Notes under the pieces: model-generated
The model's database searches: none
What the model saw: the letters and a program-made list of their open reading frames with translations, nothing else
Told to the model about the DNA's origin: nothing
From: a virus
IMG/VR virus record: IMGVR_UViG_3300025314_000001
Location: 1 to 64,000 of that record
Reading direction: 5' to 3' (one strand)
Length of the DNA stretch: 64,000 bases
Translations under genes and position numbers: made by a program
Part shown: in pieces, positions 1 through 58,874 of the stretch
How the letters are laid out: the number at the start of each line of letters is the position of its first letter
Position numbering within the stretch: position 1 is the stretch's first letter

Positions 1-1447
1 GGCAGTGGAGCCCACTCGTCGGGCGGCTCGTCGTGCAGGGGTGCTGCAGTCGGAACGGAGAACAGGATGCGGAGGCAGTGGAGCAACAGCTCGGCGTATT
101 CGCCGTCCGTGAGCTCGAAGTCGGAACGGAGAACAGGATGCGGAGGCAGTGGAGCGCGGAAGCGTGAGCCAAGGTCGAGCAGGCGAGACACGTCGGAACG
201 GAGAACAGGATGCGGAGGCAGTGGAGCACGGTCGCCCAGGGCCGCGTCCTGCACCTTGATTACGAGTCGGAACGGAGAACAGGATGCGGAGGCAGTGGAG
301 CGACCGCTCCGCCCGACGGGCCTCGAGCTCCCGGGCGTCGGAACGGAGAACAGGATGCGGAGGCAGTGGAGCACGCAGGTCCCGGCGGTCACCTGGTTCG
401 TCGGCAAGTCGGAACGGAGAACAGGATGCGGAGGCAGTGGAGCCAGGTCGAGCTCGTGGACAGACAGGCCGACGGAGGGGGGGTCGGAACGGAGAACAGG
501 ATGCGGAGGCAGTGGAGCTGTCCTACCATTACCGACAGCTAACGGATGAGCGCCGGTCGGAACGGAGAACAGGATGCGGAGGCAGTGGAGCTGGGTCGAT
601 GACCTCGGGCAGGAGGACCCGTCGGGTTGTCGGAACGGAGAACAGGATGCGGAGGCAGTGGAGCGACACCTACTTTGGACTTTGCCGCCAAGCCGCCGAG
701 GTCGGAACGGAGAACAGGATGCGGAGGCAGTGGAGCGCGTCCTCGCTCGCCGGATTCGAGTTGCCCCGGCGAGTCGGAACGGAGAACAGGATGCGGAGGC
801 AGTGGAGCTGTTCAAGCGGCACGCTCGTTGGCCAGTGTGTCCGCGCGTCGGAACGGAGAACAGGATGCGGAGGCAGTGGAGCAGCACGCTACGGACGATC
901 CATCGGTCATCCAGGATTGGTCGGAACGGAGAACAGGATGCGGAGGCAGTGGAGCCTGAGGGCGTAGCGGTGCCGATTGAGCGTGACCATGCTGGTCGGA
1001 ACGGAGAACAGGATGCGGAGGCAGTGGAGCTGGTCGAGGTCGGCCAACGCATCGGAGGTGCGTTGCAGTCGGAACGGAGAACAGGATGCGGAGGCAGTGG
1101 AGCGATCGACCCGACGTCTTCGACGGCGGGCCCGAAGCAGTCGGAACGGAGAACAGGATGCGGAGGCAGTGGAGCTGGGTCGATGACCTCGGGCAGGAGG
1201 ACCCGTCGGGTTGTCGGAACGGAGAACAGGATGCGGAGGCAGTGGAGCTTGGCGTGCGGTACCGGCAATCTGCCGAGGTCATGTCGGAACGGAGAACAGG
1301 ATGCGGAGGCAGTGGAGCGGTTGGCCGTGCTGATCTAGGATGAGCCCATCCACTGGTCGGAACGGAGAACAGGATGCGGAGGCAGTGGAGCTTGCCCGGG
1401 AGGAAGCGGCCCGTAGGATCGCGATCAGGTCGGAACGGAGAACAGGA
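1..1447 (+). CRISPR. CRISPR array, 36-bp repeats, 20 spacers, no cas genes in window
   Basis: A 36-bp repeat starting GTCGGAACGGAG and ending GGCAGTGGAGC recurs identically. Complete copies start at 49, 120, 192, 266, 337, 408, 483, 556, 629, 701, 773, 847, 920, 995, 1068, 1140, 1213, 1283 and 1356. The tail of another copy is at 1-11, so the array continues to the left of the window. The last copy (1429-1447) keeps only its first 19 bases. The 20 spacers are 34-39 nt and unique, except that spacer 592-628 equals spacer 1176-1212. The degenerate copy at the right end suggests a leader to the left and rightward transcription. The final octamer AGTGGAGC loosely matches the common ATTGAAAC 5' handle of type I/III crRNAs, which also fits + transcription. 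The type is not assignable from the repeat alone, and no Cas-like protein is encoded here. Confidence 0.96.
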
Positions 1448-1879
1448 ATGAAAGCACGCAAATACGAAGGTTCACGAAGCGATTTCATCCGCGAGCAGCC
1501 GGACAGTCTGTCGACGTCCGCAGTCATTGCGGCCGGCAAGCAAGTCGGCCTGAAGATCACGGAAAACCTAGTCCGAATCGTCCGCTACAAGATGAGAAAA
1601 GCGGCCGGTACGGTCACCAAGCGCGGGCGCCGCAAGGGGACCGACGCTATCCAGGTAGCGCCTGCGCAGGCCACCAAAACGCGGCGTGGCCGGCCGCCGA
1701 AGAACCCTCCAGTTGCCACCGACGCCGATCCAACGGGCATGCCATTCGACAAGGTCGGAAGCCGTTTACCTCTACCAGAACTCGCTTCCTCGGCGCGGGA
1801 CGCGGACAGCTTCTGCCGACTCATCACCCGCATCGGTACCACGAAGGCCCGGGCTCTCTTGGACGAGCTAGAGAAGTGA
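1448..1879 (+). CDS. Basic protein with AT-hook-like motif
   Basis: 143-residue basic protein of unknown role. A helical N-terminal part (about residues 9-52) is followed by a basic linker with an AT-hook-like RRGRPPK near residues 78-85, and an acidic helical end (FCRLITRIGTTKARALLDELE). The linker suggests DNA binding. From memory, the N- and C-terminal parts resemble small putative regulators common in myxobacterial chromosomes; this was not verified. The ATG at 1448 was chosen because the truncated CRISPR repeat directly before it supplies GGAG seven bases upstream; an in-frame ATG at 1340 lies inside the array and is unlikely. The stop overlaps the next start as GTGA, so the gene heads a compact operon downstream of, and codirectional with, the array. 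Confidence 0.8.
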   Translation: MKARKYEGSRSDFIREQPDSLSTSAVIAAGKQVGLKITENLVRIVRYKMRKAAGTVTKRGRRKGTDAIQVAPAQATKTRRGRPPKNPPVATDADPTGMPFDKVGSRLPLPELASSARDADSFCRLITRIGTTKARALLDELEK

Positions 1880-3254: not shown

Positions 3255-6200
3255 ATGAAACTCATATCCACCGGTGACCATCACTGGAACGAGCGCCGTC
3301 GATTCGCCGAATCCGTGCGGATTCACCGCGAGATAGCGGAGCTTGTCGCCGCCGAGAAGCCCGACGTATTCCTATCCGGCGGAGACCTCTACGAAGGGGC
3401 GTCCACTCCGGTGGAGCGGGAGGCGGTAGCCGATTGGGTGACGTCGGTGGCGGAGCATTGCCCGGTCCTGGTGACCAAGGGCAACCACGATCGCCCGGTG
3501 GACTGTCTCCTGCTACGACGTCTTCGGACCCGTTACCCGGTCATCGTCGAAGAAGGCGCGGGGCTACACCGGATCGGTGGAGCTCAGATCGCCGCCATGG
3601 CGTGGCCGACGCGAGAAGGTCTCTTGAAGATGTCGGTCGACACTGAGGTCGACCGGGATGCCCTTACTTCCGAGGCTCTACGTGCTGTTCTGCGCTGGCT
3701 CGGTTCACAGTTCGAAGACCTGCATGGACCGCGCATTCTTCTCGGCCACTTCATGGTCGACGGGTCCGTAACGAGCACCGGTCAAGAGCTCGTCGGCGCC
3801 CCGTGTAGCGTGGCGCTTTCCGACCTGGACCTCGTGGGTGCTCAGGTCGGCCTAATGTCGCACGTCCACAAGTTCCAGCAGTGGGATTCTACCGGGACTC
3901 CCTACCTGTACACTGGGAGCCCCCTGCGGCAGAACTTCGGTGAGCTAGAGGACAAGTCGGTCACCCTCGTCGAATTCGACGGGCCGAAGCTGGTGTCGAT
4001 TCGGCAGGTGCAGACCTCGGCGACCCGGATGCTTCTACTCGACGGGGAATGGTCCGTCGACCATTGGAAGCCAGGACCCGTAGGACCTGGGTGCACTCCG
4101 CTGATGGAGCCTTCCGGAGCCGAGATCCGGTTTCGATACCGGTGCTCATCCGAGCACCGAACCCAGGCAGCGGCGGCCGCGTCCAAGATTCGAGACGACC
4201 TTCTCGCCAATGGCGCCGTCTCGGTGCAGGTCGAGCCGGTGATCGAGGTCAAGAACTCCGCCCGCGCCCCAGAGATTGCGCTGGCGCGCGGAATGGCCGA
4301 GAAGCTCCCGGCCTTTTGGGCCGCCCGGGCTACCACTCCCGAGGAGCCCCGACGGTCCCGCCTGCTCGACCTGGCATGCCAGGTCGAGGCCAATACCCCC
4401 CGCCCGGTTGGGATTTCGACCGGTGCCGCCCTCTTGGACTGGATTAAGCTCCGGGGGATCGGTCCCTTCAAGGGCACGGTGGAAGTCGACTTCCGGAACC
4501 TGCCGCCCGGGATCGTGGCCCTAACGGGTAGGATCGGGGCTGGCAAGACCACCCTGCTGGACTCCTACGCCGCGGCGCTCTACCGGAAGCTCCCGACGTC
4601 CGAGCGGGGGCTCCTGTCCAAAATGGCGGTTTCACGCGACGCGTTCGTGGACGTCGGCATCCAGAACGGGAAGTCTCTGCGTATCGTTCACGCCATCGAC
4701 GCCGGCAAGCAGACCGCCGGCTGGGAGGTGTCGGTATACGACCGCGCGGCGGATGGTTCCGAGTCGCTCACCGGGTCGAGCAAGGTTTCTTCCTTCGACG
4801 ACTGGCGGGATCGGAACATGCTCCCGATGGAGATCTTCCTTGCAGGGCCCTACCAGGCCCAGGGGGCGAACGCGCTGGTCAATGCCCTCGATTCCGAGCG
4901 GGCTTCGATCATCCTGCGGGCTCTCGGGCTCGAGTACTACGAGACCATGGCCGAGACGTTCCGGAAGCGCGCCAGCGCGGCCAAGGAAGAACTCGAGAAG
5001 GCCACGGCCCGCGTGGACGACGAGCGGGCCCGCGGGGGCTACGTCGCTCAGTGCGAGCAAGCTGTGATCGACGAACGCATGGGGCTCGGCCCGTCCCAGT
5101 GGGCACTCCAGGTAGCCCGCGACGCTCTCACGGCTGCCGAGCAGGCGCTCCGGGAGCACTCCAGGGCCCAGGAGGCCTACCTGGAGGCCGTGGCGGCTCG
5201 CGGGGAGCTCGAGTCCAAGATCCGGGACAACCGCGCCCAGCATGCCGACCTGACCGAGCGGCTGACGAACAACCGGAAGCGGCTAGACCAGAAGCCGAAG
5301 ATCTTGGCCGCGGTGAAGCGCTCGGACGAGCTTCGGGCCAGCGTATCCGCTGCCGAGGCGGAGCTGGCCCGGCTCACGGCCGAGCACCAGGGGCTCCAGC
5401 GGGAAGAGTTAGCGCTGCGCCAGGAAGCCGCCGGCAACAAACAATCGTCCGTATCGGCTCAGGCTCGGGCGGACGCCGCCAATCGGCGCCTCGGACGAAA
5501 GCCTGATATTGACGCCGCCGCGGCCAGCATCCCCGGGCTTCGAGCGGCCTGGGAGGAAACATCGAAAGCAGCTGAAGAAGCCGTCCAGATGGTCCGCGGC
5601 GACGTGGCGGCTGCCGAAGCGGAGCTCGATCGGCTCCGTGGGCTGCGTGTAGCTGGGGCGGACGAGCGGATCTTTGGGCTCCGTAGTGGACTCGCTTCCG
5701 TCGTGGAGTGCGAGGGCGAGGCTGAGGACATGGCCGAGCTAGCGGCCTCCGCCCTTGACCGCGATACCATCGCCCTGGACACAGCCGCCGAGCTCCCGTC
5801 CCAAATCACCCGCCAGGCTGCCGAGGTCACCCGTCTGCGCCGGCTCCTGGATACCGTCACCCTGCAGACTGGACAAAAGCGCGACGAAGCCGCTCGGGCG
5901 CTGTCCAAAGCCGAACAGGTTGCGGTCGAGGCAACGCACTTGGAGGCAGCCCAAGCGGAACTCGAAGCCGCGCTCGGTGACCTACAGCGCTACCAGCAGG
6001 CCGAGCGGGCTTGCGTCGCGAAGTCCACTGAGGTCGTACAGCGCCGGACTGCCGCCGGCAGTGAACGCGACACCAATGAGCGAAGGCTCGCTTCGCTCAA
6101 GGAAGAGCTCCAAAAGCTCGCCGCAATCGTCGCCTACAAGGAGCAGGCGGACAAGGCGGAGGCTCGAATCGAACAGCTCGAGAAGGAGCTCAGGCGTGTC

Positions 6201-41373: not shown

Positions 41374-42885
41374 TTAGGACGCCGTGACCGTGACGGTTTC
41401 CCCGAACTTCATGCTGAGGAAGATCCGGTCCATCCCGCTCGAGGTCGTCACATCGAGCGGCACGATGAAGTTGCCCTCCGCAATGGATTGCGGGGAGTTT
41501 GCTGCTGCGCGGTCGCCGAAGCCGTAATCGACGACGTGCGGCATCTTCAGCGGGTCGAGCTTCACGTTCTTCTTTAGGTTCGACATGAAGCGGTCGATGG
41601 CGATAATGACGTCGTCTTGGATGACCTGAACGTTCGGCGCGCCGGCGAAGTCGCGCAGGCTGCTGACGACACTGGTCGCGATGTAGTGACCGATGCGGGT
41701 GCGGGTGATCCGCTTCTTGGCTGGCGTCGACGGCGCAATCGTCGTCACGCCACCCTCGAAGCTCCAGCCGCCGTTCGGCTCTTTGATGATGGTGTTGATC
41801 CCACGCAGGGTGTTCGATCCCGCGGCTTCGCCGCGCGACGTCTCGAGTGAGACGATGCCGTTCAGCATTTCTCGGATGAATCCCGCTTTGCAGGCCGGCG
41901 AAGTGGACGGCGAGATCTGCGTCATGACCGACGCCAAGAACGAATCCCCCGGCACGAGCCGAAGCGTTCCGTCAATGTCGTCGCGGATCCGTACCCAACC
42001 GTCGACGTAGGCTGCTTGCCAGGACGAGTAACCAGAGGTGGCGACGTCGGTCTGGGCTTGCGCCAGCGTGAGCCCAGAGTCCCCGTGGATCAGTGCCATC
42101 CGGTCGCCCATGAGGGTCGCGTGAGCCACGAGCCCCGCCATGACGCCGGCTCGGTCAACGTCTCCGGGGTCATCCGCAAAGACGACCCGCACGTCTCGGT
42201 CGGACTCGGCTAGCGCTAGACCGTAGTCTCCGGACCCAGCCGTACCGAGGTAACGCGCCGAGTTTACGGTGCCGTCGGAACCGGTGCTGAAGCTTCCGGT
42301 GCCGTCTGTCGGACGTCCCGTGTTCGAGCGCGTCATGGACCCGAGCAGGATGCATCCCGTTGTCGTCGGGTCCGTGTAGGACGACCCCGACGCATCGACG
42401 TTGCGCAGGATGTCTGAGCTGGTACCGCTCGCCCCGGTGATCGTGATCGTTAGGTCGAAGTGGTTGGCGTCTCCGTCGGATGCGGCGGCGATGGTCCACG
42501 TGACGGAGTTGCCGGCGGCCCCAACGTACTTCAGCGTGGCGACCAGGATGGTGGTTCCGCCATTCACTAGGTTCGCCGTCGCCTTCGCCGCTGCGCTCCC
42601 GACGGCGCGCACGATACGGAGGTCGTACCAGCCCTTTTTTAGCAGTGCGAGATACCCTGAACCGGTGCGGGTCATCCCGGGAGGCGCCATCGTCAACGCC
42701 AGGTCTCCGATGTTCGTCGGGTGAAAGGGCGTTGCCTGGTCGACATGGGTGGGACCCCACGGGAACTGTCCCAGTAGTAACGCGGTAGCGGTCCCGGCGG
42801 ACTGCACCAGCGCCGGGGGCTCGCGCTCGATCGCGTAGATCCCCATCAACGTTGGAGTCGTGATGGATTGGACGAATACAGGCAT
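41374..42885 (-). CDS. Contractile tail sheath protein
   Basis: 503 residues. An N-terminal strand region (YAIEREPPALVQSAGTATAL and GQFPWGPTH), a Ser/Thr/Gly-rich inserted domain (about 105-220), the central fold with DRMALIHGD and a C-terminal part with MNGIVSLETSRGEAAGSNTL, TRIGHYIATSVVSSLRDFAG and GFGDRAAANSPQSI. These are the conserved sheath core features and they define a myovirus. An upstream hairpin pair may control translation. It is the first gene of the tail module. Confidence 0.85.
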   Translation of the reverse strand: MPVFVQSITTPTLMGIYAIEREPPALVQSAGTATALLLGQFPWGPTHVDQATPFHPTNIGDLALTMAPPGMTRTGSGYLALLKKGWYDLRIVRAVGSAAAKATANLVNGGTTILVATLKYVGAAGNSVTWTIAAASDGDANHFDLTITITGASGTSSDILRNVDASGSSYTDPTTTGCILLGSMTRSNTGRPTDGTGSFSTGSDGTVNSARYLGTAGSGDYGLALAESDRDVRVVFADDPGDVDRAGVMAGLVAHATLMGDRMALIHGDSGLTLAQAQTDVATSGYSSWQAAYVDGWVRIRDDIDGTLRLVPGDSFLASVMTQISPSTSPACKAGFIREMLNGIVSLETSRGEAAGSNTLRGINTIIKEPNGGWSFEGGVTTIAPSTPAKKRITRTRIGHYIATSVVSSLRDFAGAPNVQVIQDDVIIAIDRFMSNLKKNVKLDPLKMPHVVDYGFGDRAAANSPQSIAEGNFIVPLDVTTSSGMDRIFLSMKFGETVTVTAS

Positions 42886-53730: not shown

Positions 53731-54972
53731 TCACTCTCGTTTTCCCCGCGGACCCGGAGGAGGGTAGAGCCTCGGGCGGGTCGCTCCCGCGCTCGACCGG
53801 AAACGGCTGCCCCTGCCGGCGGGCTTCTGCATGTCGTTCAGCCGCTTCAGAAGCGCTTCCGGGCTGCTCTGCCGCACGCCGGGGCGAATACCCTGTGGCC
53901 CTTGCGTAACGGCCCTGATGTAACGGAGGGCGCTTCGGTCCTGGATCTGGAAGACGTTGACAGGGTTGGTCGCCGCCAGCGCGTTGCGCGCTTCCGGTGT
54001 CATCCTTCCCCGTGGAGAGCGCGCCCCAATGAGTTCTCGGAGCTCAGCCTTGATCTCGCCGTAGTCGACCTGGAGCCCCGGGAGCCGGCGCCGCATCGCC
54101 TCGGGGATGACCATGCTCACGACGGCGCACCGGCAGCGGTTGTGCAGTGGTACTTGGGCGTCTTCGTCGAATGGCTTGTCAAACGGGACCATCTGGGCAT
54201 CGAGTCTCCAGCAGACCGCGCAGGTCCGACCGTCCAGGAACGCCGACCAGACCTTGAAGGTCATGGCGGTCCAGCCCCATGGGAGGCCGATGTCCGAGTC
54301 GGTGACCTCGTCGACCCGGGGTCGTGTTCGTCGGGCTGCCTCGTCCCGGAGCCGAGATATCTCGCCCCAGGCGCTTCGGTGCTCGTGGCCGTAGGCCTCG
54401 AAGGCCTGGTAGCTCGCGTGCCCCACGAGCTTGTCGGAGAGCGTTCCGCCGGCGCGCTTCAGCGCTTCCTCGAGTCGCCCCCCGTCGCGCCCCCAAAGCG
54501 AGGTCCCGAGCATCATTGCGCTCGCCCACTGCGACACCGCGGAGCCGGTGGCGATCGTTGCGGCGAGCTCGTCGACCTGTACCGCCTCCCAGACCTTGGG
54601 GGCCGCTGGGATCGTCCAGCCGAATCCCTTGGCCTTCCCGTAGGCCCCGACGATGGCCAGCTCGGACGCTACCTGACCCTGGGCGAGGTCGCGGGCCGCC
54701 ATCCGGCCCCGGGTCGTAGCCTCCCAGAACTGGTCTTCGAGCTGCCCGGTCTCCTGGTGGATGGCCTGGCGAAGGAACCGCTGGGACTCGTCGGCGTCTC
54801 GCGTCTTGGCCCGGCGCCGGTTCGCCTCGATGAGCCTCCCCGTCGCTGCCTGCGTCGCCTCGGTCATCATGCCGAGGCTGACCGCCTCAGCGGCGACGAC
54901 CCGTTGAATTGCGTCCCGGTGCTGAGCCAGCAGACGCTTTCGGGTTTCCTCGCTCAGTACCTTCGGCGGCAT
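53731..54972 (-). CDS. MuF/SPP1 gp7-like head morphogenesis protein
   Basis: 413 residues from the ATG at 54972, overlapping the portal gene by 86 bases; the ATG at 54870 would avoid the overlap but has no Shine-Dalgarno. A long helical N-terminal region is followed by the MuF signature: FLDGRTCAVCWRLDAQ and, 15 residues on, VPLHNRCRCAVV. A basic, Pro/Arg-rich tail ends it. MuF proteins sit beside the portal inside the capsid and are often injected with DNA. Located directly after the portal as usual. Confidence 0.85.
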   Translation of the reverse strand: MPPKVLSEETRKRLLAQHRDAIQRVVAAEAVSLGMMTEATQAATGRLIEANRRRAKTRDADESQRFLRQAIHQETGQLEDQFWEATTRGRMAARDLAQGQVASELAIVGAYGKAKGFGWTIPAAPKVWEAVQVDELAATIATGSAVSQWASAMMLGTSLWGRDGGRLEEALKRAGGTLSDKLVGHASYQAFEAYGHEHRSAWGEISRLRDEAARRTRPRVDEVTDSDIGLPWGWTAMTFKVWSAFLDGRTCAVCWRLDAQMVPFDKPFDEDAQVPLHNRCRCAVVSMVIPEAMRRRLPGLQVDYGEIKAELRELIGARSPRGRMTPEARNALAATNPVNVFQIQDRSALRYIRAVTQGPQGIRPGVRQSSPEALLKRLNDMQKPAGRGSRFRSSAGATRPRLYPPPGPRGKRE

Positions 54973-56596
54973 TTCGCGGCTTTTCCTCTTCGAGCTCTTC
55001 GTTGCCCTCTTCCGTCCCCTCTTCTCCCGCTCGGAGCGCAGCCTCACGAAGCGCGTCGGTCATGGCCTGGTTCTCGTCGATCCCTTCGTCGATTTCCTTC
55101 TGAATCTGCACCCGCGTCTCGGGCGAGCAGTGCGGGACCAGGGACAGTGCCAGACTGGTCTTGTACTCTTTTTGGAATGTGCTCGACGGGATCGGAATCG
55201 TCTCCACCGTCAGTGCTTCATCGACCAATTCTCCGCGCTCGTTTAGCCGGAACTTCGAGCACCCGTACACGGCCCAGACGACTGCTTCTCTGCGCGCATC
55301 ACTGAGACAGCTGTAGACCTCTTTGGTGGCACGGCGAACGAACTTCCCGAGCGCACCCAAGACCTTCTCGGCTGACGACGAATCCTCTTTTTTGCTCTCC
55401 CCGGAGCGTCCGACCGTGGACGCCGTGTTGGGCAGCGATAGCGCCATCGCCGTTACGGTCAGGTAGATCTCTTCCTTGAGACTTTGGAGGCTCTTGTCGG
55501 CAATACTGAAGGCGTTCCCGCTCGGACTGGCATAGCCGATCTCATCCTTGTCCCCGATGGGTACGATGCCTTTCTCAAGTAAGGCCTGTAGGGTCTTTTC
55601 TCCGCGCTTCTCGTCCTCTCCGGTGGCACTCGGAAGTGCTTCTCCGACTCCTCGGACTTCCGAACCCTGTCGATACCACGGGATTTCGATCAGATTCCTG
55701 CCTATCGCACCGAAGAGATCGGAGCGCCGCTGGAAGTGCTCTTCGGCTAACGCTCCGATCTTATTGCCCGCCCAAAGCCCATCCGGTAGCTCAAGCACTA
55801 CGATCGGAATGCGATTAAACGAGGTCGTTCCCTCACCCACCTGGAACATGATCTCGTTGTCGCCGATGGGATCTCCGATCTTGTGGAGTTTTGACTCGAG
55901 CACCACGAACTTGGCAACCCCGCCCTCCATGTACCAGCACTTGAATCGGCACTTGTACTCGGTGCGCTCGTTCCAAGGGTCAAGGCGCTCGATGAGTTTG
56001 CGCATCGTGATGGCCCATAGCCACTTGCCATCATCTCCGATTCGCCAATCCAAGAGCTCTTGCTGGTCCAGTCCCTCGTCCCAGCAATACCCGCGCCCCG
56101 CCCCCGTCTTCTCTTCTTGGGCCCGGTTCGTGATCTCTGCGCCAACAGGGGGGAAGTCGAGATAGATGACGCCACGCTTGAAGAGCAGCGCCTGCGTCAC
56201 GATGCGGCGCATCACTTCTGCGAAAGGGCTTCCGGCTCGGTCCGCGTCGTTTGCGAAGTCTGGCCAGAATGCCTTGTCCGGTAGCTCCCCCGGAGTGTTC
56301 GGGTCTTTGGCGTCCCCCGCTGCGGTTACCGAAAGCTCTTCCTCGAAAAGCGCCGCGACCAAGTAGTCGACGACCTGGCCAAAGTAGTTGATGTACGAGA
56401 CGCGCTGAATCCGGTACTCGTAAGTCTGCTGCGTCTCGTTGATCGCTTTCTCGATGAATTTTCGCGCCTGCTCCTTGAGCTCATACCCGCCCTTGTAGAG
56501 CAAGCGGATGCGCTGCCAGATCTCCGGCTTGTTCTCCGGATTCTGCTGCGACAGCTTCTTGAAGCCGACGCTGGAAACAGACTCGGCGAAGGCCAT
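54887..56596 (-). CDS. Portal protein
   Basis: 569 residues. Helical N-terminal part (PEIWQRIRLLYKGGYELKEQ) and a core with YFGQVVDYLVAALFEEEL, GVIYLDFPPVG, WRIGDDGKWLW and PIVVLELPDGLWAG form the wing and clip regions of the portal fold. A stem helix with SLQSLKEEIYLTVTAMALSLP follows. The end is acidic, low complexity (EEGTEEGNEELEEEK). It sits two genes after terminase. It forms the dodecameric DNA entry ring. Confidence 0.88.
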   Translation of the reverse strand: MAFAESVSSVGFKKLSQQNPENKPEIWQRIRLLYKGGYELKEQARKFIEKAINETQQTYEYRIQRVSYINYFGQVVDYLVAALFEEELSVTAAGDAKDPNTPGELPDKAFWPDFANDADRAGSPFAEVMRRIVTQALLFKRGVIYLDFPPVGAEITNRAQEEKTGAGRGYCWDEGLDQQELLDWRIGDDGKWLWAITMRKLIERLDPWNERTEYKCRFKCWYMEGGVAKFVVLESKLHKIGDPIGDNEIMFQVGEGTTSFNRIPIVVLELPDGLWAGNKIGALAEEHFQRRSDLFGAIGRNLIEIPWYRQGSEVRGVGEALPSATGEDEKRGEKTLQALLEKGIVPIGDKDEIGYASPSGNAFSIADKSLQSLKEEIYLTVTAMALSLPNTASTVGRSGESKKEDSSSAEKVLGALGKFVRRATKEVYSCLSDARREAVVWAVYGCSKFRLNERGELVDEALTVETIPIPSSTFQKEYKTSLALSLVPHCSPETRVQIQKEIDEGIDENQAMTDALREAALRAGEEGTEEGNEELEEEKPRNAAEGTERGNPKASAGSAPGRNSTGRRR

Positions 56597-57236: not shown

Positions 57237-58874
57237 TCAACTCATGGTCGGCAGAAACCTAGACCGCATCGCCCGGTCACGTTCCGCCTGTTGGGTGTTG
57301 CAGAGTTCGTCGTGCAGGGCCGCCAACGCATCCACGATATCGTCGTGGTCGTCTTTCTTGGGGTCCCCGGTGAACGACAGGACCTCGTTCAGGAAGACGT
57401 CGACCCATTCGCCGTAGAGCTCAGAGTCTTCTCCGGGCACGAATATGTGTCCCCGTTTCCCTTCGATGGGTTTTCCTTCGTCGTCGGTCGGAACGTTCCA
57501 AGTGGATGAGACCGGGGTTGCGCGGACAAGCTTGTCGGCCGTCGCGCGCAGGGCTCTCAGATAGGTTCGGTTGTTGGCGTCACAGAGGTGCTTTGCGATG
57601 AACTGCGCAGTGCCCTTCTCTCCTCCGCCACCGATGTACCATCGGATGATTCCCCGGCGTTCAGTCAGCTTCGCCTTCATCGTCAGGACGAACGACGTTG
57701 CCTCGACCTGCTTTCGCTCCATCCCGACAACGTAGATGTCACTTCCGAAGATGTAGCCGCGGAGCAGCACCGACCAGTCGGATTTGGTGCCCACCGTGTA
57801 GGCGAGGTCGGCGCCGTAGGCGATCGCGTACCCGCCTTCGCTCGGGAGCCTGGTGAAGCGCTGAACTCCATTAAAGAGCGCTCCCTCGACGGTCTTGACG
57901 AGCCAGTTACCGTCGCGGAGCTGAAGGCGCCTGACGCGGTCTGGAATCGACGCAACGCGCGCCCCGTACTTCGGGTCTGCCCTCGGGTTGTCCGCGAGCA
58001 TTGCCGGAATGAAGGTCCGCGAAAGTGACTTCGGTGTGCCGTCTGGGTTCAGGACCCGTTCTCGGCAGTAGACCTCGTTCCCTGCATCATCGAGGTAGAC
58101 GTGCCAGATTTCTCCGGGCTTGGCCGGAGGAAGCTGTCCAGCCTCGTCTTTGCGCTCTGTCAGTCCCTGCGCTTTGAAGTTCGGGTTGAGCCACGCCCCC
58201 CAGCGTCGGAAGACCCACTCGTGCCCGTTGCCGCCGGGGTTGGTGGTAGCCCGCACGTAGACCGGGAGTCCAGGACGACTTGATCGGTTTCGTCCAATGA
58301 GGAAGGTGTACTGCTGCTCGGTGAAGTGAGTGAGCTCATCGAAGATCAGAAGGTTGATTTCCCAACCGTCGTAGTTCTTCCAGTCGTCCTCGTTGTTGCA
58401 GTGGCTGAGACTGACCTCGGCACCGCTCGGAAACGTCCACCGATAGTGAGGGCTCTGGACCTTCGTCGCACCGGGGCACACCGCCGGGTATAAATCCCAG
58501 CTCTTGTGAATGAGGTCGTCGAGATCTTTGCTTTGGCGACGCAGGATGAGAGTCCGCATCCCCGGCAGGTGACCCCACTTGAGCGGGAACGCGACGGATG
58601 CGGCGGATTTGCCACCCCCAGCGGCCCCGCCATACAGTACCTCATCGCAATCGATGTCCCAGAAAAGCTCCTGAGGGCTTTTCCCGTTGTCGTAGGTGGG
58701 CCTGCCTTCGACGGGCGGATTCGGATTCCAGACTGCGGAGACGTCAAGCGGAACCGGGTCCGACTCTTCGTCCTCAACCGCCCGCAGTCTCGCCAGCCTC
58801 GCGCCGGCGATCGAGCTCCATGAGGTCTTCGAGGATCCCCTGGAGAATCTTTCTTGCAAGAACCCCTTTGACAT
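57237..58874 (-). CDS. terL: Terminase large subunit
   Basis: 545 residues. ATPase: LYGGAAGGGKSA (Walker A, about 82-93), WTFPSGAEVSL, NLLIFDELTHFTEQQYTF (Walker B with catalytic Glu) and RATTNPGG (coupling motif). The nuclease half has IAYGADLAYTVGTKSDWSVL with the first Asp, then MERKQVEATSF and DDHDDIVDALAALHDE with C-terminal acidic metal ligands. It packages DNA through the portal. The start at 58874 overlaps the small subunit gene by about 100 bases. Confidence 0.95.
   Translation of the reverse strand: MSKGFLQERFSRGSSKTSWSSIAGARLARLRAVEDEESDPVPLDVSAVWNPNPPVEGRPTYDNGKSPQELFWDIDCDEVLYGGAAGGGKSAASVAFPLKWGHLPGMRTLILRRQSKDLDDLIHKSWDLYPAVCPGATKVQSPHYRWTFPSGAEVSLSHCNNEDDWKNYDGWEINLLIFDELTHFTEQQYTFLIGRNRSSRPGLPVYVRATTNPGGNGHEWVFRRWGAWLNPNFKAQGLTERKDEAGQLPPAKPGEIWHVYLDDAGNEVYCRERVLNPDGTPKSLSRTFIPAMLADNPRADPKYGARVASIPDRVRRLQLRDGNWLVKTVEGALFNGVQRFTRLPSEGGYAIAYGADLAYTVGTKSDWSVLLRGYIFGSDIYVVGMERKQVEATSFVLTMKAKLTERRGIIRWYIGGGGEKGTAQFIAKHLCDANNRTYLRALRATADKLVRATPVSSTWNVPTDDEGKPIEGKRGHIFVPGEDSELYGEWVDVFLNEVLSFTGDPKKDDHDDIVDALAALHDELCNTQQAERDRAMRSRFLPTMS

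Follow-up and report, generated by a model that had tools for sequence, protein, structure and literature searches.

A virus genome that opens within a clustered regularly interspaced short palindromic repeats (CRISPR) array raises the question of which Cas protein the array serves. This question was addressed for the IMG/VR virus record IMGVR_UViG_3300025314_000001, of which positions 1–64000 (64,000 nt, here called the window) were analysed together with the remainder of the 106,685-bp record. An earlier note, made from the letters of the window, had described an array without cas genes joined to a large myovirus genome. The present analysis indicated that the apparently orphan array is part of a defined three-part module, which also comprises a compact effector resembling Cas12f and a partner protein with a coiled coil, and that the module occurs in six phages of 85–392 kb. 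Judging from sequence comparison, it is probably a phage-borne type V system that no longer cleaves and would silence by binding guided by CRISPR RNAs (crRNAs).

The array continues across the record ends and adjoins an effector gene

The array, the first open reading frame (ORF) downstream of it and the module genes are the following; those outside the window are in record coordinates.

1–1447, + strand: CRISPR array, leader-distal part (partial repeat, 19 exact repeats, 20 spacers, truncated last repeat)
1429–1447, + strand: truncated last repeat (first 19 of 36 bases), leader-distal array end
1448–1879, + strand: first ORF of the phage operon downstream of the array, from the ORF list (longer form from 1340)
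Record 103919–105646, + strand, outside the window: effector, 575 aa, TnpB/Cas12-like (Pfam, PADLOC and profile matches)
Record 105612–106343, + strand, outside the window: partner, 243 aa, helical domain plus coiled coil, overlapping the effector gene
Record 106344–106440, + strand, outside the window: leader, 97 bases
Record 106441–106685, + strand, outside the window: leader-proximal array part, 3 exact repeats

The array proved to be real, as the earlier note had it: the 36-nt repeat GTCGGAACGGAGAACAGGATGCGGAGGCAGTGGAGC is present at 49–1391 in 19 exact copies, all on the + strand with zero mismatches among them, and the reversed pattern, used as control, gave 0 matches in the whole record. 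The spacers are 34–39 nt long, and the previous count of 20 in the window was reproduced, one spacer being present twice, between an 11-nt partial repeat at the window start and the truncated repeat at the array end. The first nine bases of the repeat are identical to those of a CasPhi repeat. The ATG of the ORF at 1448–1879 abuts the truncated repeat, whose purine-rich end (window 1429–1460) may be the ribosome-binding site of the downstream operon. When the remainder of the record was searched, as the note had proposed, 3 further exact repeats were found at record 106441–106620, with the effector gene upstream, so the array runs on across the record ends.

The last 76 bases of the record are identical to its first 76 and include the complete 37-nt spacer s21, which places both record ends in one array. 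A circle with one s21 measures 106,609 bp and has 22 spacers, 21 of them distinct; joining with two s21 copies is equally possible. On this closed map the effector gene, the overlapping partner gene, the 97-base leader and the array follow each other on the same strand. The impression that no cas gene was present arose because the record was opened inside the array, with the effector directly upstream on the closed map. It holds for the 64-kb window, as searched with Cas1, Cas2 and effector profiles and with part of the window proteins scanned, and fails for the genome, in which the effector lies at 103919–105646. The note's proposal of a phage-borne array relying on host Cas proteins or on a compact effector encoded elsewhere was thus borne out for the phage-borne array and the compact effector, which is encoded elsewhere in the same genome, so that the array does have a cas gene. 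As a caution, an array at a contig end can conceal an effector at the opposite end.

Closure of the map was derived from the end overlap and from a sibling contig with other break points, since no single contig spans the entire array. Between the sibling and the window's phage, the 8,520 bases leading up to the array are 100% identical, and the 12,608 bases beyond it differ by 1 mismatch. The two arrays agree from s4 to s17 and in the last spacer, and the sibling has an additional spacer, s20, beside the leader and s21 doubled in tandem; this difference is a leader-end gain in one array or a loss in the other.

An assembly artefact, with repeats causing a false join of the record ends or a false attachment of the array, would be in keeping with both record ends lying within repeats, with the lack of a contig spanning the array and with the sibling being broken there as well. 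It is nevertheless scarcely credible, given that the shared end sequence includes a complete 37-nt spacer, that the flanks recur in the second contig, at 100% and 99.99% identity outside the array, with different break points, and that the same module is present in other phage records, well inside the record in the viral contigs L034 and L036 and in Virus Rctr197k. The note's own alternative, a host chromosomal array beside a prophage, might be favoured by the integrase and the repressor-like protein that the record encodes. This reading was discarded as highly improbable because both record ends lie within one array and share a complete spacer, and to the left of position 1 the array simply continues and is followed by genes of the same record, which thus stand on either side.

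A Cas12f-like effector whose RuvC-I aspartate is replaced in six phages

The type of the system, which the earlier note had found not evident from the repeat, was resolved to type V, Cas12f-like, by PADLOC and by profile matches to PDB chains. The 575-aa effector alone matched the Cas12f1-like TNB family of Pfam at E 0.001 (under the curated cut-off), PADLOC Cas12u3 at 3.6e-5 and PADLOC Cas12f at 1.8e-4, and weakly the solved chains of the Cas12f group (0.0019). In a six-frame search of the whole record, the effector profile matched at one site only, 103919–105646.

A tblastn search with the effector led to Virus Rctr197k, in which Rctr197k_117 aligns at 27% identity with 49% of the query (E 1e-15). 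This relative is annotated as transposase-like and adjoins annotated CRISPR repeats. When viral contigs were scanned with alignments, L034 (297,749 bp), L036 (392,328 bp), L037 (111,584 bp), L039 (85,413 bp) and the sibling were found in addition. The last such scan yielded no further relatives, and none were found in genome contigs with a single sequence or an alignment, both searches being restricted to short peptide patterns. Counting siblings with the window's phage, the effector, a homologous partner and an array occur together in six distinct phages, and the five other phage records with the module span 85–392 kb. In Virus Rctr197k, a second transposase-like gene, Rctr197k_108 (KX853510.1 110803–114219, stretch L021), adjoins a second, longer array with a different repeat, and its RuvC motifs look intact by eye.

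The profile of the six effectors matched PDB chains with transposase-like names, which we take to be AsCas12f1, across nearly the full length at 1.3e-43, followed by chains named Cas12f at 2e-37 and Cas12f1 at 8e-36; PADLOC Cas12u3 and Cas12f matched 6/6 effectors. The locus thus has a single RuvC/TnpB-related effector adjoining a CRISPR array, as in class 2 type V systems, and its nearest kin among solved Cas12 proteins, as judged from the PDB profile search, are those of type V-F.

The RuvC-I Asp is replaced in all six effectors, by His in L034, L036, L037 and Rctr197k and by Cys in the window's phage (Cys333) and L039, and the RuvC-III Asp is retained in all six (Asp522 in the window's phage). 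The RuvC-II Glu is kept in the four His effectors. The corresponding column of alignment A6 has Ala444 in the window's phage and Asn in L039, and that of another alignment has Asn and Ser, respectively, again without Glu. None of the six has the intact Asp-Glu-Asp triad of cutting V-F members. The peptide patterns that retrieved L034, L036, L037 and L039 did not include the RuvC-I motif. The RuvC-I Asp is present in three of four comparison proteins, the exception being a TnpB-like protein of a Ruminococcus plasmid, with Asn in its place; the row of the phage's own TnpB served as control for RuvC-I and RuvC-III only, its RuvC-II column being misplaced. A reading of RuvC-I as 'GID', with the Asp kept, was overturned by the alignments, in which the Asp column is Cys333.

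Two observations on other TnpB-like proteins were made. The Ruminococcus albus plasmid protein (stretch L032, NC_014824.1 316073–317434) is annotated as a TnpB-family RNA-guided endonuclease, has no array within the stretch fetched and, with its RuvC-I Asp changed to Asn, is possibly a nuclease-dead regulator. The phage record has a second TnpB-like frame of 293 aa at record 67437–68318 (L015:9437–10318), possibly short at the N-terminus, in which the RuvC-I and RuvC-III Asp are present.

Partner protein and arrays of the related modules

The partner, a helical domain followed by a C-terminal coiled coil, was found in all six phages. Relative to the effector gene, its gene is upstream in three phages (L034, L036 and Rctr197k) and downstream in two (the window's phage and L039). 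The partners of L034 and Rctr197k share 35% identity (E 4e-32), and the window's partner was connected by profile comparison (120 columns, probability 84.6, E 6.8e-6). A profile of five partners matched in 6/7 related records, the miss being a 50-kb sibling fragment; five of these six matches are profile members or identical to one, and the independent match is that in the contig of L037 only (E 1.6e-16). With the L034 partner as tblastn query, the sole match among 50,697 phage records was Rctr197k, and nothing was found in 72,556 plasmids. The structure model of the partner reached a predicted local distance difference test (pLDDT) score of 74.5 from a 4-row alignment.

The repeats differ among the six phages. 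At the module, L036 has 5 repeats and L037 11 exact ones, L034 has 4 with a fifth copy 68% alike, Rctr197k has 4, and L039 has 3, one of them 69% alike. The L037 contig is closed by a 132-bp end overlap, with a second array piece and the partner across the join. The motif GTGGAGC forms the 3′ end of the repeat in the window's phage, L037 and L039. A leader stem is shared with L039 (50/60 bases identical) and might function in RNA processing; its fold is not significant, 12/200 shuffles being equally good. In L034, the segment 1494–1638, upstream of the partner gene, recurs at 4017–4179 between effector and array (83–89% alike in pieces), as though both sites shared a single regulatory or leader segment. 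A scan of viral contigs for diverged repeats returned 12 stretches, of which 3 were known contigs; the other 9, with a single match each, were taken as chance.

Spacer matches were sought in phages and plasmids, as the earlier note had suggested, and the 20 window spacers gave no target (best E 0.4; s18, s19 and s20, outside the window, were left out of this search). The 22 distinct spacers had matches of 12–18 nt at most, besides the array itself, in the phage's own stretches and the related loci. One spacer of L037 matched a gene of the window over 17 nt (E 1.5e-4); this match was dropped, since its full-length score was the same as that of the reversed spacer.

A proposed binding function and its alternatives

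According to the proposed mechanism, an integrase-bearing myovirus of ~106.6 kb has a module complete in itself, made up of leader, 22-spacer array, Cas12f-like effector and coiled-coil partner. The array would be transcribed from the leader into crRNAs, for which the better conserved 3′ half of the repeat is a putative handle by repeat comparison, and these guide RNAs would be loaded on the effector. With two of the three catalytic acids gone from its RuvC site, the effector may find matching DNA and remain bound without a cut. Once bound, it could keep competing mobile elements or host genes from being transcribed, to the benefit of the phage, and the partner probably aids the binding or alters its outcome. 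The lack of cutting is also suggested because Cas12m2, which has His at RuvC-I (triad HDD), does not cleave and silences via binding, as stated in the available part of its description (PMC10442227). Loss of the RuvC site in type V is reported, in the accessible part of a further paper, to have occurred independently on multiple occasions (PMC12669027). A wider reading, possible and put forward tentatively, is that of a phage-specific two-protein type V branch without cutting, in which the disarmed effector and a dedicated partner act as programmable gene control in infection or lysogeny and the arrays are renewed, in phages without their own Cas1, via host machinery or recombination.

Several observations weigh against a binding-only module with a dedicated partner. 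In the window's effector, the residue at RuvC-II changes with the alignment used, being Ala in A4/A6 and Asn in another, four relatives retain Glu and Asp, and non-cleavage is an argument from alignment alone; the structure model of the effector had a pLDDT of only 35.6 and was discarded. By plain BLASTP, the window's partner matched that of L034 at just E 0.015. The partner had no Pfam or PHROG family except for weak coiled-coil matches, and a Foldseek comparison of its model with PDB and viral models gave nothing at E ≤0.001. A trans-activating crRNA (tracrRNA) was not found: the best duplex energies with the repeat were near those of shuffled sequence (one shuffle per region), and an Rfam search of L017:13000–16685 was empty up to E 5. 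Targets were found for none of the spacers searched.

The retained Glu and Asp in 4/6 effectors, with the RuvC-III Asp in 6/6, would also suit an effector that still cuts or nicks by a non-canonical site and performs ordinary interference against rival phages and plasmids, and the retention of a long array likewise suggests a functioning system. We consider such cutting unlikely, as the RuvC-I Asp is lost in 6/6 effectors and the RuvC-II Glu in the window's phage and L039, and the HDD triad of Cas12m2 is described as not cleaving (PMC10442227, available part). If instead host Cas proteins used the array in trans or were decoyed by it, the TnpB-like neighbour would be an unrelated degenerate insertion, with which its catalytic degeneration is in line. 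The frames of effector and partner, however, are open in the window's phage and the related loci, and effector, partner and array are kept together in six phages with different repeats, which makes the in-trans or decoy reading quite improbable, although the search for the repeat covered viral contigs and a host array with an identical repeat is conceivable. If silencing by binding is the correct reading, phages retain RNA-guided DNA binders that do not cut, the undescribed partner could alter what a bound Cas12f does, and the arrays offer a natural example of turnover in phages without an adaptation module of their own.

Comparison with known systems

The module resembles type V-F Cas12f (Cas14) in its compact TnpB-like effector with RuvC and TNB zinc ribbon adjoining an array, and differs by the loss of the RuvC-I Asp in 6/6 effectors, by the conserved partner and by a tracrRNA not being found. 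PDB entry 9n9c, 'Nuclease-deactivated Cas12f', cleavage-dead by its PDB name, was matched by the profile at E 0.0014 and presumably acts with a sigma factor; Pfam gave no sigma-factor family for the partner. Phage-borne RNA-guided transcription factors, which descend from TnpB with loss of the nuclease, are alike in kind, and here the guides come from a many-spacer CRISPR array. TldR proteins are nuclease-dead TnpB regulators with a single guide RNA and no CRISPR array, unlike the present locus with its 22 spacers. Type V-J CasPhi (Cas12j) is likewise phage-borne, the protein of the present module being smaller; the profile match to its chains is confined to the zinc-ribbon region (profile positions 405–456, E 0.0031), without full-length kinship. 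The same holds for Cas12m chains, matched in that region only (E 0.00024 and 0.0069).

Two precedents are known, both from the available parts of the papers concerned. A 'dCas14' of huge phages, described in 2020 as a phage-borne Cas14 without a catalytic residue and proposed to repress a host gene (PMC7162821), was compared by its description; it may be a member of the present family, and the available part mentions no partner. Almost all phage CRISPR systems described there have no Cas1, Cas2 or Cas4. The other precedent, type V-M Cas12m2, has His in place of the RuvC-I Asp and binds and silences without cutting (PMC10442227); its triad is HDD, compared with HED in the four His-bearing relatives and Cys-Ala-Asp in the window's phage. 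In literature searches that covered few subscription papers or preprints, 'dCas14' occurred together with 'phage' only in PMC7162821, and none of the titles listed concerned a partner protein of such effectors. To the extent of these searches, three features are new: the conserved partner, the loss of the RuvC-I Asp across the family, and the leader-end array differences without Cas1 in phages otherwise 99.99% identical.

The phage and its other features

A PHROGs scan of 20 proteins found families of tail fibres, tail sheath, portal, terminase large subunit, an SbcC-like protein, a DnaB-like helicase and an integrase, with a repressor matched weakly, and no family at E 0.001 for both module proteins and five others. 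The rows with coordinates are the following, all by PHROGs.

41374–42885, − strand: tail sheath
54887–56596, − strand: portal protein
57237–58874, − strand: terminase large subunit
Record 91230–92339, − strand, outside the window: integrase

By gene content the phage is a myovirus, as the earlier note had stated, with tail-fibre, sheath, portal and terminase families in the window, and it is probably temperate. In six-frame profile searches, neither Cas1 nor Cas2 was found in the phage's own record (0/1 each) or in the related records (0/7 each), some of these eight records being fragments; the same searches were positive in 9/14 control genomes for Cas1 and 7/14 for Cas2. The Cas1–Cas2 module of autonomous adaptation was accordingly absent from what was searched.

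Rfam at gathering thresholds returned nothing in the window, and no tRNA genes were found in the window or in the stretches L015–L017 and L010 (ARAGORN for the latter). A hairpin resembling a tRNA T-arm, at which ARAGORN calls no tRNA, is present near record 91198 at the integrase end and is a candidate attachment site. A second T-arm-like hairpin, also without an ARAGORN tRNA, lies near record 103848, just upstream of the effector gene.
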